Part shown: in pieces, positions 14,464 to 18,679 of the stretch
Position numbering within the stretch: position 1 is the stretch's first letter
Layout of the letters: the number at the start of each line of letters is the position of its first letter
The notes under the pieces: generated by a model
Databases searched by the model: none
Told to the model about the DNA's origin: nothing
Seen by the model: the letters and a program-made list of their open reading frames with translations, nothing else
Translations under genes and position numbers: made by a program
From: an uncultured Rhodospirillales bacterium
GTDB taxonomy: Bacteria; Pseudomonadota; Alphaproteobacteria; Azospirillales; Azospirillaceae
Direction: 5' to 3'
DNA length: 33,326 nucleotides
Assembly: GCA_903931735.1 (NCBI GenBank)
Contig: CAIZDL010000071.1
Location: 1-33,326, forward strand

Positions 14464-15801
14464 CTATTTCCTTCCCGGCGTGAGCCCTTGGGTGATATTT
14501 AGCGAGAGCAGGCAGGGCATTTGGTTCGGGAGCACCGGGCCGTGCTCAAAATCCGTGTGGTCCAGGCACTCTGCGAGGGCCGGGCTCATGTTGCCGGCCA
14601 ATGTCGCGGCCAGCAACAACAGCTTTTGTGCGCGCGGATCGGCACGGGCGAGGATCAGCGTGCCGGCTTCCCAGGGGGTGCGTGCACCGGTTATCGCGGT
14701 TACGGCCTTGACTCGCCACTCCATTGGAGCAAGCCGGGCGGTGGCGAAAAACAAAAGTGGCCCCAGCATTAACGCCGCCGCCACCAGCCCCGCCGTTACC
14801 CAGGTGTGCCGGCGCAGGCCAAAGGTGCGCTCAGCGGCATGGGCCAACGTGCTGGCGCGCAACGCTGCCTGATGCTCGGTTGCCGCCTCGGCATCATAGA
14901 GCGGCGAGGTTGGGTTGGTCACCCAGGCGACGAGACGGCTGGCGATGGCCATTTGAGCCGCAACCGGGTTCCAGCCATCGCCAATGGCGTGCATCGCCCC
15001 AGAACCCCGGTTGGCGGCGTCTTCCAGGCGTTGTACCAACTCGACGGTCAAACCGACATAAGCGCTGGCGGCGGTCGAGCGCGGCCGGTGAAGCAACAAG
15101 GGCCGGCCCAAAACAGAAGCCGCCGCAAGCTCGGGGCTATAGGGGATTTCGGTGGTTAGCACTTGATCGGCAAACGAGCGGCGCACGGTGGCGGCCAAAG
15201 TTTTGGCGCCCTGGGTGTCGCCGTCCTGGCGCTGCATGGTCAGTAAAACATCGAGCACCGGTCGGGGCTTTTGGGCGGCGTCCGCGAGGTTGGCCATAAA
15301 CTGGTCAAGGTGGCGTAATCCTTGGAGCGCATAAGCGTCGTAGGGCAGCGGCACCAGCACCCGGTCGGCGGCGAGCAGCGCGTTGATGGTCAAGCTGCCG
15401 AGCGAGGGCGGGCAGTCGATCACCACATAGTCGAACGGTTGACTAAGGGCCTGAAGGGCCTGTGAAAGTCGGTGCTGCCCTTCGTGTTTGGTCGAAAGAT
15501 CGGCCTCCAGTTGGGTGAGGTTGAGGCTGGCCGGCGCAACCCACAGATCGGGAATTCTGGTTTGCCAGACCACGCCTTGATGATTGCCGCCCTCGGTCAG
15601 TAATTGGTGAGTGCCGCCCTCGCCACTGGCAATCAACGCAAAGCCGACATTGGCGCTGGCGTTGCCCTGGGGGTCGCAATCGACCAGGAGAACCGGCCGC
15701 CCGGCGGCGGCCAGCGCGGTGGCGAGGTTGACGGCGGTTGCGGTTTTGCCAACTCCGCCCTTTTGACTGGCCACCGCGATGATGTGGGAGTGCTCGGCCA
15801 T
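14464..15801 (-). CDS. ParA-family ATPase with C-terminal membrane anchor
   Basis: A 445-residue protein. Residues 1-260 are a ParA/Soj-type ATPase with the deviant Walker A SQKGGVGKT (12-20), DCDPQGNAS (41-49) as the second nucleotide-binding motif, and VIDCPPSLG (127-135) as Walker B/switch II. The fold includes PLPYDAYALQGL as in chromosome-partitioning ParA. A linker of about 70 residues follows, then one clear transmembrane helix (334-354) and about 90 further residues. ParA proteins usually lack a transmembrane helix, so this one is probably fixed in the membrane. No parB lies nearby, which argues against chromosome partitioning. It is the last gene of a four-gene set; the gap to the gene before it is two bases. 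Confidence 0.88.
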   Translation of the reverse strand: MAEHSHIIAVASQKGGVGKTATAVNLATALAAAGRPVLLVDCDPQGNASANVGFALIASGEGGTHQLLTEGGNHQGVVWQTRIPDLWVAPASLNLTQLEADLSTKHEGQHRLSQALQALSQPFDYVVIDCPPSLGSLTINALLAADRVLVPLPYDAYALQGLRHLDQFMANLADAAQKPRPVLDVLLTMQRQDGDTQGAKTLAATVRRSFADQVLTTEIPYSPELAAASVLGRPLLLHRPRSTAASAYVGLTVELVQRLEDAANRGSGAMHAIGDGWNPVAAQMAIASRLVAWVTNPTSPLYDAEAATEHQAALRASTLAHAAERTFGLRRHTWVTAGLVAAALMLGPLLFFATARLAPMEWRVKAVTAITGARTPWEAGTLILARADPRAQKLLLLAATLAGNMSPALAECLDHTDFEHGPVLPNQMPCLLSLNITQGLTPGRK

Positions 15802-15803
15802 AT

Positions 15804-16685
15804 CTAGCTTCCCGGCGGTCGGAGATTGATCAGGGCTTCAAGGCCAACGCGCTTGCCGGCCCCGCTTCCTTGCGTGGTTTCGGCCTCGTCGCTTGGTTTT
15901 TCCCCCGGCCCTGGGCGGGAGGTGCCATAAAGCGCCGCCCACAAGGCCGCCGCTTGGGCGTTTTGTGGCGGTGTGGCCGGTACGCTGAGAGAGGCCCCGG
16001 TGGCGGGAGCGACCCCGGCGGCGCGGCGGCCTTTTGCGCGCTTAGGCGGAAGCGGAGCCAGCCGCCCCGGTCCGAATGAGGGTAGGGCCGGGGCTAACGC
16101 CGCAGCGGACGAGGCCGACCAGCTCTTATCCCCAACCAAAGATTTCAAGTCGTTGACATCGATCCGGCGGTAAAAGATCAGCCGGCACCTTCGGGACAGC
16201 ACCACGTAGGGCATTCCCAGCACGACCAAAAACCCGAGCACTAAAAACGACCCCGGTGCCGAGGCTCCCCGCACGATTTGTTCGAATCCCGCGAGTCCTG
16301 GCCCGGCAAGGCCAATGCCGGCGAGCATGTGTCCGGCTTCAGCGGCAATAAGGAGTGTCAGGCCAAAGGTCACGATTAGGTAGAAGGCGGGAAAACGCGG
16401 GTGCTTGGCGAGACCCAGCCCCGCCGCCGTTAATGCCAAAACCGACAGAACAACCTTCCCGAGAGTGAGCAGCAGGAGGGCCGAGCCAAGATCAGGGTTG
16501 AAAAGATCAAATGATATGACAGGTTCGATCAGTCCAATGGTCCCGACCAATGCCAGGAGCACAATCACCACCAAGAGTACCCCGGTCACCACCGCATCGG
16601 GGTGGGATGCAGCGGTGAGGTAATCGACGGTCACGGTCCGCCGCGATTTCCTCCCGGCCGTTGCGGGCGGTTTGGTCTCGGACAT
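15804..16685 (-). CDS. Four-helix membrane protein with a DUF2569-like pattern
   Basis: A 293-residue protein. A basic cytosolic N-terminus of about 30 residues is followed by four predicted membrane helices (about 33-55, 68-92, 101-122, 143-165). The fourth runs into MPYVVLSRRCRLIFYRR, which recalls the end of DUF2569 proteins. The remaining 120 residues are an Ala/Pro-rich, probably disordered cytosolic tail. Function unknown. It sits nine bases after the Mic60-like gene and two bases before the anchored ParA gene, so it very likely belongs to the same transcript and perhaps the same complex. The DUF2569 similarity is from memory and moderate. Confidence 0.75.
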   Translation of the reverse strand: MSETKPPATAGRKSRRTVTVDYLTAASHPDAVVTGVLLVVIVLLALVGTIGLIEPVISFDLFNPDLGSALLLLTLGKVVLSVLALTAAGLGLAKHPRFPAFYLIVTFGLTLLIAAEAGHMLAGIGLAGPGLAGFEQIVRGASAPGSFLVLGFLVVLGMPYVVLSRRCRLIFYRRIDVNDLKSLVGDKSWSASSAAALAPALPSFGPGRLAPLPPKRAKGRRAAGVAPATGASLSVPATPPQNAQAAALWAALYGTSRPGPGEKPSDEAETTQGSGAGKRVGLEALINLRPPGS

Positions 16686-16694
16686 AGCCGCCCC

Positions 16695-17906
16695 CTATTG
16701 GTTCCGGCTGACCGCAGGACTGGGAATCGCACCCTGGCGCAACGCCGACATGGCGGCATCGGCATCGAGCCGGCTGTGGGCCAGGGCCAGCCAGCGCCCG
16801 GCCAATTCGCCGGGGTAGGCATGTAAATCTTCAAGCTGCCGAACCGCGACCGGCAGGTTGCTGAGGCCCAGCGCCGCCCGAATGCCGCCCAGAGCCGCCC
16901 GAAAGCGCTTCGATTCCGGGGTGTCGCTCAGCCCAAAGCCTGAACCGATCCAGCCGAAAAACCGGCTGAAGACGTTCTGATCTCGCGAAACCTCAACCAG
17001 TTGGGGTGCGAACTGGTCGCGGACATCGACAACGCCGCCAAGCTTGGGGGCGATTTCATCAAACCGTTCCCGAAGGGCGATCAGTGTGGGGACGCCGGTG
17101 GTGGCATTGCTCTCCAACTGGCTGGCAAGCGAGGCAAGGTTGGTATCCCCCGATAGCGCGGTCGATATCCGGTCAAGCTCAGCCTTGAAGGGTGCGCCGC
17201 GCTCGATTGCCGCCTGGAGTTGGTCGAGTGCTGAAGAAAATTGCACGGCGCGCATGGCTGTGCCAAACTTCAGATCGACAGTTGCGGCAAGATCGCTGAC
17301 CCGATTATCAACGCCAACCAACCGTTTGGCCAGTTGCGCCTGATCACGCTCCACCTCATCGAGCTTTGTGATCAGGGTGCCTGGGATCTCGGTGCTTTTT
17401 GGCTCAACCTTCGTTCCGGGCAGCAGATAGAGCACAATTACGGTGAGGAAGGCGCCAACCAGCATCAACCCGGTTGCGGCGGCGATGCCGAGGGTCAGCC
17501 AGCGCATCCCTTTGCGGGTCCGCCACCAGGAGCGGCGCGCGGCTATTGCTGCGGTTAGCGTGGCCTCTTCATCATAAACGGCCTGTTCTTGATCGTCGCC
17601 GTCCCCGGCATCGTCGCTTTGGTTGGGTTCGCCATGCTCGGGCAGAACCTCGGTTGCTTCCTCGGTGACGGGCGGGGTGGCGGCGTCGCCAATCTGCGCC
17701 ATCATCGAGTGCGTATTAAGGCTTCTAAAAAGAACAACGTAATCCTCGTCTGAAAGGAACATCAGACGAGAATCTCGGGCTGCAAACAAATCCCACCGTT
17801 CGGCCAGCGACAACGCCAGCAGAGAATCCAGCATAACCGCGCTTTCGTCGCGGCTGGCCATCCAACTGTCGGTGATGAGTCGGTCGAGAGTGTCGATCCA
17901 GGACAT
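16695..17906 (-). CDS. Membrane protein with Mic60/mitofilin-like C-terminal region
   Basis: A 403-residue protein. Residues 1-130 are cytosolic and end in an acidic stretch. One transmembrane helix lies at about 136-163, followed by a coiled coil (residues about 175-235). The C-terminal part has the pattern of alphaproteobacterial mitofilin/COG4223 proteins: ATTGVPTLIALRERFDEIAPK, then an amphipathic segment, then repeated helices ending in RWLALAHSRLDADAAMSAL. That family tethers membranes and shapes cristae or intracytoplasmic membranes. The true alphaproteobacterial Mic60 is normally next to haem biosynthesis genes and lacks this N-terminus, so this appears to be a paralogue or new architecture. 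I chose the ATG at 17906, whose first base is the last base of the preceding TAA; the in-frame start at 17966 lies inside the upstream gene. Confidence 0.8.
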   Translation of the reverse strand: MSWIDTLDRLITDSWMASRDESAVMLDSLLALSLAERWDLFAARDSRLMFLSDEDYVVLFRSLNTHSMMAQIGDAATPPVTEEATEVLPEHGEPNQSDDAGDGDDQEQAVYDEEATLTAAIAARRSWWRTRKGMRWLTLGIAAATGLMLVGAFLTVIVLYLLPGTKVEPKSTEIPGTLITKLDEVERDQAQLAKRLVGVDNRVSDLAATVDLKFGTAMRAVQFSSALDQLQAAIERGAPFKAELDRISTALSGDTNLASLASQLESNATTGVPTLIALRERFDEIAPKLGGVVDVRDQFAPQLVEVSRDQNVFSRFFGWIGSGFGLSDTPESKRFRAALGGIRAALGLSNLPVAVRQLEDLHAYPGELAGRWLALAHSRLDADAAMSALRQGAIPSPAVSRNQ

Positions 17907-18679
17907 TATCGTGAAGCCATACCGTGAGTGACTGGGGCCAGGGCCAACGTAAGTTGCTTCAGCCAAGTAGCGTAATCGCCGGTAGCTCTCCTGGCGGCGA
18001 GAATGCCGAGGCCGGTCATCTGGGCTACGGTTTTGGGATCGAGGGTGATGACTTGGGCCGGCGGCATTTTAAGCCGTTCGAAGTCGGTCCACGCCTCGCT
18101 GACGCAACTCGCCATTTCAACGATGTAAAGCCCCCGGTCGCGCATCATTTCAATCCGCCTGAACTCGGGCGTGCCGCCGTAGGTGTCAAAAGGTCCGGCC
18201 TTTTTATTGAGCACCAGAATGCGTCGGCAAAACGGGAAGATGCGCTCAACCGTTTCTAAAACCTCCAGCCCCGATGATACCGCCAGCGGTTCGGCGGTAA
18301 TAGGGACGTAGATGTCCATGGTAACGCCGGAATCTTCAAAGAGCGAAGCAAGGTTCGACTTCTCGGCCCAGGAAAGGATTAGCCGGTCCATGTTGGCGCC
18401 AATATCGACGCCGGTATCACCCTCGACGATTTCTTCGGCTAGCCGGTCCCAATAGCTAAAAGCCAGAGATGGATTGGCTCTGATCTCGTCCATCGAGGCG
18501 CCGATCTTGAGCGAAAGCACCTTGTCGGGGCCCATAAATTCGCTAAGCTTCGCCTTGTCATCAGCATCGATCAGGCGTAATGGCCGTCCGGATGCCTCAT
18601 AGATCGCCGCGAGAGCCATCATGAGAACCGACTTTCCGACGCCTCCCTTGCCGTTCGCGACCCAAACTGTATGTGGCAT
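17906..18679 (-). CDS. ParA/TraL-like P-loop ATPase
   Basis: A 257-residue cytosolic ATPase. The deviant Walker A reads ANGKGGVGKSV (8-18), and the second motif is RLIDADDKAKL. Unlike ParA proper, there is no DxPP switch II; the matching place reads DIYVPITAEPL. VLNKKAGPF probably provides the adenine-contact Asn. This divergence recalls TraL/MinD-like NTPases of conjugation or polar positioning systems. AAGGAAG lies a few bases upstream of the ATG, and the stop overlaps the next start (TAATG). It is the first gene of the four-gene cluster, following a promoter-like site and a structured leader. Its partner is probably one of the two membrane proteins encoded downstream. Confidence 0.85.
   Translation of the reverse strand: MPHTVWVANGKGGVGKSVLMMALAAIYEASGRPLRLIDADDKAKLSEFMGPDKVLSLKIGASMDEIRANPSLAFSYWDRLAEEIVEGDTGVDIGANMDRLILSWAEKSNLASLFEDSGVTMDIYVPITAEPLAVSSGLEVLETVERIFPFCRRILVLNKKAGPFDTYGGTPEFRRIEMMRDRGLYIVEMASCVSEAWTDFERLKMPPAQVITLDPKTVAQMTGLGILAARRATGDYATWLKQLTLALAPVTHGMASR

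Follow-up and report, generated by a model that had tools for sequence, protein, structure and literature searches.

A ParA-type ATPase and mitofilin-like gene cluster from an uncultured Rhodospirillales bacterium as a candidate trans-envelope positioning system

What might be the task of four tightly packed genes that encode two different ParA-type ATPases and two membrane proteins, one of them Mic60-like? The genes, here called A, B, C and D, lie consecutively on the minus strand at positions 14464-18679 of a 33,326-nucleotide stretch of DNA (the window), which is a whole contig (G000:C71) of the draft genome of an uncultured Rhodospirillales bacterium, the relatives near it being uncultured Rhodospirillales metagenome-assembled genomes (MAGs) and its family probably Azospirillaceae. 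In the literature, no publication that describes the A-B-C-D cluster was found. A preliminary description of the locus had suggested a membrane-bound positioning or membrane-shaping system, for example for intracytoplasmic membranes. We tentatively propose, at somewhat less than even probability, that the four genes encode a trans-envelope positioning scaffold, polar or septal, that would be powered by ParA/MinD-type ATPases. This reading is based directly on the conserved order of the genes, on their co-occurrence, and on the domains and hydrophobic helices of the proteins.

17906..18679, minus strand: gene A, 257-amino-acid cytosolic deviant-Walker ATPase, TraL/StbB-like and of the CbiA/ParA type, with gammaproteobacterial orthologues of 62-68% identity
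16695..17906, minus strand: gene B, 403-amino-acid membrane protein with a cytosolic helical N-terminal domain, one transmembrane helix and a periplasmic mitofilin-like domain (topology predicted)
15804..16685, minus strand: gene C, 293-amino-acid protein with four transmembrane helices and a long disordered tail
14464..15801, minus strand: gene D, 445-amino-acid ParA-type ATPase with a C-terminal transmembrane helix and a short periplasmic end

The coordinates and junctions agree with the packing described earlier: the stop of A shares a TAATG with the start of B at about 17904-17908, 9 bases lie between B and C, and C and D are 2 bases apart. Comparison with the relative G002 indicated purifying selection on all four genes, with ratios of nonsynonymous to synonymous substitution (dN/dS) of 0.04 for A, 0.14 for B, 0.18 for C and 0.09 for D; protein identity was by far the highest for A (95%), followed by B (77%) and C (68%).

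Distribution and gene order

A scan of about 85,000 genomes, many of the carriers being MAGs, with conserved peptides of A uncovered 15 loci, a lower bound since exact peptide matches were needed. In the genus of the window, the cluster was present in all five genomes, with A-B-C-D complete in four and the contig end of the fifth (G003) falling inside C. Two further Azospirillaceae MAGs (G011 and G013) carry A, B and a longer C (C') with no adjacent D, and the contig of G013 ends soon after C'. The A loci outside Azospirillaceae are in Thiospirillum jenense, Allochromatium warmingii, Thiocystis minor, Lamprocystis, Thiocystis sp., Halochromatium and MAGs labelled Thiotrichales, where A is 63-67% identical; over all comparisons between alpha- and gammaproteobacteria the identity of A is 62-68%. 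Among 385 sampled genomes of the window's own class no further close A was found, weaker homologues scoring 100-140 bits. The cluster is retained across unrelated groups of water bacteria, and the earlier worry that it might not extend beyond close strains is removed by its occurrence in Azospirillaceae, Chromatiaceae and Thiotrichales-labelled MAGs. High identity of A across classes, at only 15 loci, suggests that the cassette is rare, patchy and probably laterally moved; the tree of A proteins, whose long branches are unreliable, does not fix the direction or number of transfers.

The gammaproteobacterial versions follow the order A-B-C-D and then E, often with F, where E is a protein with a SPOR domain (two of the three proteins tested exceed the Pfam cut-off) and F is a MinD/FlhG-like ATPase. 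A-B-C-D-E-F stand in a single row in Lamprocystis and Halochromatium, A-B face C-D-E in Thiocystis, and C-D-E lie apart from A in T. jenense. The addition of a SPOR protein and a MinD/FlhG-like ATPase strengthens the interpretation as a membrane-bound positioning system, the part of the preliminary description that is still the best reading.

Among 146 Chromatiaceae genomes, A was found in 6 and full-length D in 12, including all six A genomes (hypergeometric 8e-8, relatedness ignored). At the loci read, D-bearing genomes without A have only D-E-F. A pattern search for the C-terminal motif of C (see below) found it at every A-B locus searched and at the C-D-E locus of T. jenense, but D loci that lack A-B did not have it, suggesting that D-E-F is a unit of its own in Chromatiaceae which A-B-C joined in some lineages. 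These Chromatiaceae D-E-F units (L142-L146, L116) often stand beside greA and carAB, and the P-loop of their D is altered to GVGAT; judged from this sequence, D in the A-less units is probably a dead ATPase.

The same loci bear on the alternative of a cell-division module, in which B, C, D and E would sit at the septum and A, D and F, as regulators of the ParA/MinD type, would control either its placement or its peptidoglycan. SPOR domains recognise septal glycan that has been denuded and are typical of septal proteins (PMC6895207), F is MinD-like, and D-E-F is an independent unit beside greA and carAB in several Chromatiaceae. However, the patchiness of A and D in the 146 genomes is odd for a core division factor, and the window cluster has no adjacent E or F, so that we consider this alternative unlikely.

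The ATPases and their membrane partners

Both A and D carry the deviant Walker A motif KGGVGK[ST] of the ParA/MinD ATPase superfamily. As had been described, A lacks the DxPP of switch II and reads DTGVDIGANM at this place.

18629..18652, minus strand: A P-loop GKGGVGKS with signature lysine, invariant in 12 orthologues
18386..18418, minus strand: A DTGVDIGANMD replacing the ParA switch II DxPP, with D-x-G-A-N-M-D invariant in 12 orthologues

The best distant named relatives of A are TraL and StbB, plasmid TraL being 25-26% identical; on the NCBIfam TraL model PRK13886, A scores 19.4 bits against a cut-off of 360, far short of that family model. Among the window proteins scanned, no relaxase or accessory DNA-binding gene linked to A was found. 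G291, from another alphaproteobacterial family, has a homologue of A (33% identical) that adjoins a relaxase-like gene and a tyrosine integrase gene in what is apparently a mobilisable element (L161:7470-13964), and this neighbourhood points to a conjugation-related ancestry of A. The named relatives of A and the G291 locus also speak for a remnant of a conjugative or mobilisable element. Against it, chromosomal housekeeping genes flank the cluster in the window, where no relaxase or transfer gene was found, no plasmid record matches B, and all four genes are held intact by selection, making such a remnant highly improbable. The cluster belongs to no known plasmid or conjugation system, clear membership in which would have told against the preliminary description. 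A second A-like protein (about 26% identical) is encoded elsewhere in many Azospirillaceae (L074:5151-7191, L079:6113-6934); in the genome of the window, the gene before it encodes a protein that ends in a long proline-rich tail and matches no NCBIfam model.

D has the full ParA motifs (KGGVGKT and VVIDCPPS), an AAA_31 domain and the membrane helix previously assigned to it, followed by a conserved end predicted to be periplasmic.

14743..14799, minus strand: D transmembrane helix, residues 335-353
14464..14742, minus strand: D periplasmic end (predicted), with conserved W-R, G..W.AG and R.D..A and two cysteines, C412 and C430, invariant in seven homologues of both classes

No ParB partner for D was present among the Pfam matches of the window proteins scanned, and parS was not searched for. 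An origin of D as a phage or plasmid gene was rejected, the likeness to generic ParA being restricted to the ATPase part. PADLOC gave only a weak match, confined to the ParA P-loop stretch of D, and a defence system was likewise rejected.

B was aligned by hhalign with 21 Mic60 sequences from Azospirillaceae and other groups, and reversed and column-shuffled alignments served as controls.

17679..17906, minus strand: B N-terminal helical domain, residues 1-76, the best-conserved part, predicted cytosolic, with most blocks at a predicted local distance difference test score (pLDDT) of 85-92
17430..17486, minus strand: B transmembrane helix, residues 141-159
16728..17378, minus strand: B coiled coil and mitofilin-like bundle, residues 177-393, matching alphaproteobacterial Mic60 (hhalign) and 7pv1_B

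An arginine-rich stretch directly before the transmembrane helix suggests an N-in orientation. The hhalign probability was 99.0% for the B proteins of the window's genus, 95.7% for G011/G013, 91.8% for Chromatiaceae and 65.3% for Thiotrichales, compared to less than 1% for the controls, and all groups aligned onto one and the same Mic60 region. The Pfam Mitofilin model gave 27.3 bits for the C-terminus of B in the window (cut-off 27.4) and 38.1 bits for the G001 orthologue. The predicted structure of B (mean pLDDT 72) found no significant match in the PDB by Foldseek; a second comparison matched it to the Mic60 mitofilin domain 7pv1_B with a root-mean-square deviation (rmsd) of 1.9 A over 55 residues, 22% identity and a Z of 7.3, the closest by rmsd among the rows shown and middling in Z for helical bundles. 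A PDB profile search with the B alignment gave weak helical matches only, and Pfam HemX as the origin of the B domain, with no convincing match in eight genomes, was not informative. Taken together, the alignments indicate that the mitofilin likeness of the periplasmic part is real, in line with the one-helix coiled-coil protein with a mitofilin-like C-terminus described before.

B is not the Mic60 orthologue of the genome. G000:C38 encodes another Mic60-like protein, whose N-terminus is the one usual in Azospirillaceae, so that B is an additional mitofilin-domain paralogue. In three genomes of the genus this other Mic60-like gene is followed directly on the same strand by a dynamin-family GTPase gene (L164 on G000:C38, 82-3141; L165 on G001:C6, 2997-6143; L166 on G004:C201, 3445-6427); the GTPase scores 48.8 bits for Dynamin_N and is about 81% identical between genomes. 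The pair is reminiscent of Mic60 and OPA1, and no dynamin-family gene was found beside Mic60 in G018 of the same family. The topology of B varies by group, the Thiotrichales B (L087:1048-2487, L093:683-2143) having two transmembrane helices and a coiled region that is longer than in the window B. In the Lamprocystis MAG, B (L089:7844-8428) is without the transmembrane helix and most of the periplasmic part, and A, C, D, E and F are retained.

Membrane shaping by B is possible, and a MICOS-like function can be formulated in which B, by bending the inner membrane or tethering it, would form or retain internal membranes, and the ATPases would place these. In its favour, the periplasmic domain of B is homologous to that of Mic60, a domain that gives mitochondrial cristae their shape; Mic60 in alphaproteobacteria acts in intracytoplasmic membranes (PMC12136173); the Chromatiaceae carriers are mostly phototrophs, and the window's own genus also has the Mic60-dynamin gene pair. 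However, no reaction-centre gene was present in the five genomes of the genus, in the two Thiotrichales MAGs tested or in the MAG of Lamprocystis, other internal membrane types not having been looked for, indicating that the cluster is not tied to intracytoplasmic membranes of the phototrophic kind. Moreover, phototrophs without A exist, one photosynthetic Chromatiaceae genome having no A and no C near its D, and the Lamprocystis cluster is kept despite its truncated B. A phototrophic-membrane function is thus disfavoured, the intracytoplasmic-membrane part of the preliminary description is weakened, and MICOS-like shaping in general is quite unlikely.

C has the four helices and long disordered tail earlier read from it, and its architecture differs by group: four helices, two helices with a long N-terminal region, or one helix.

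15822..15857, minus strand: C C-terminal motif GKRVGLEALINL, shared by C proteins from Azospirillaceae, Chromatiaceae and Thiotrichales that differ in other respects

The motif, R-x-G-L-[ED]-x-L-[IV], is constant across the groups and is predicted to lie on the cytosolic side. Pfam LysM gave no match in C, C' or E, a stretch of C' being LysM-like by eye with a fold model of pLDDT 35, and no Pfam FimV/TPR domain was found in A-D or their relatives.

The flanks of the cluster are chromosomal, with carbamoyltransferase and aminotransferase genes on one side and GGDEF-EAL, lexA and cobalamin genes on the other. As previously noted, no parB, min or transfer gene is nearby among the window open reading frames scanned. 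A promoter scan upstream of A gave nothing convincing, and an Rfam scan of the window gave no match.

Proposed mechanism and competing functions

In the proposed positioning scaffold, A would bind the cytosolic N-terminal domain of B, the tail motif of C in the cytosol, or both, and B would cross the membrane and form, on the periplasmic side, a coiled-coil scaffold like that of Mic60. D may be a second ParA-like switch that is tied to the membrane, its cysteine-bearing end reaching the periplasm. In gammaproteobacteria, E could connect the assembly to denuded peptidoglycan at the division site or pole, and F would act together with this E-linked assembly. ATP cycles would recruit or hold cargo at the pole or division site, as may be compared to HubP/FimV with FlhG/ParA and to StbB for R388. 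StbB is required for the polar placement of R388 (PMC3098194), and HubP/FimV is a peptidoglycan-binding membrane protein that organises poles and acts with FlhF/FlhG (PMC12918733).

Several observations weigh against this scaffold. Beside the window cluster, neither E, F nor a recognisable peptidoglycan-binding domain was found. The A-less gammaproteobacterial D copies tested have lost the P-loop lysine, and other copies the signature lysine, suggesting that D is perhaps not a motor everywhere. FliG is present in 15 of the 18 carriers and also in flagellated relatives without A, making its co-occurrence uninformative and singling out no cargo; a flagellar function by co-occurrence was rejected on the same ground.

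Alternatively, the cluster might serve to assemble a single envelope machine, be it a pilus, a secretin or a flagellum, by opening the cell wall or marking it, as the ExeA-ExeB pair does. The combination of a cytosolic ATPase with membrane proteins in one operon, joined in relatives by a protein that binds peptidoglycan, would fit this idea; on the other hand, pilus, secretin and secretion genes were not recognised beside the clusters read and the ATPases are ParA-type, not ExeA-type AAA, which leaves such a factor very unlikely.

A bolder form of the scaffold proposal, which we hold to be doubtful, places a mitofilin domain outside the mitochondrial contact site and cristae organising system (MICOS): a laterally transferred trans-envelope machine would work on its own, its Mic60-like scaffold in the periplasm being driven from the cytosol by a conjugation ATPase that has been domesticated and by a ParA anchored in the membrane, and would give bacteria ATP-driven control of membrane architecture or polar assembly. 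To our knowledge, there is no earlier example of a mitofilin domain paired with ParA-type ATPases. If true, the cluster would represent an undescribed ATPase-driven envelope system, bearing on pre-mitochondrial uses of Mic60-type scaffolds and on the recruitment of conjugation ATPases to chromosomal tasks. The presence of the cassette in the culturable purple sulfur bacteria Allochromatium warmingii, Thiocystis minor and Thiospirillum jenense makes tagging and deletion feasible.

Comparison with known systems

Different from ExeA/GspA-ExeB/GspB, which combine an AAA ATPase with peptidoglycan binding, A and D are ParA-type and gave no peptidoglycan-binding match. D shares the full ParA motifs and the AAA_31 domain with ParA/Soj, MipZ and BcsQ-type ParA, whereas it adds a transmembrane helix and a periplasmic end, has no ParB partner, and has a degenerate P-loop in several homologues. 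Like alphaproteobacterial Mic60 (COG4223, of MICOS ancestry), B has one transmembrane helix, a coiled coil and a periplasmic C-terminal mitofilin domain; unlike it, B carries an N-terminal domain of a different kind, is encoded with operon partners and is present in addition to the C38 gene.

A shares the deviant Walker fold and KGGVGK[ST] with the relaxosome ATPases StbB, TraL and VirC1, of which StbB is needed for placing its cargo at the pole, but A is only about 26% identical, reaches 19 of 360 bits in NCBIfam, and is chromosomal with no relaxase, StbA/TraK or oriT. As in HubP/FimV with FlhF/FlhG and ParA1, a periplasmic wall-binding membrane protein (here the gammaproteobacterial SPOR protein) is linked to ParA/MinD-type ATPases, including the FlhG-like F. 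In contrast to that system, the cluster is without a FimV/TPR domain, no LysM was found, several separate proteins stand in place of one, and a mitofilin-like periplasmic scaffold is encoded together with two or three ParA-type ATPases. On the proposed reading, the cluster is analogous to HubP/FimV-FlhG without being a member of that system.

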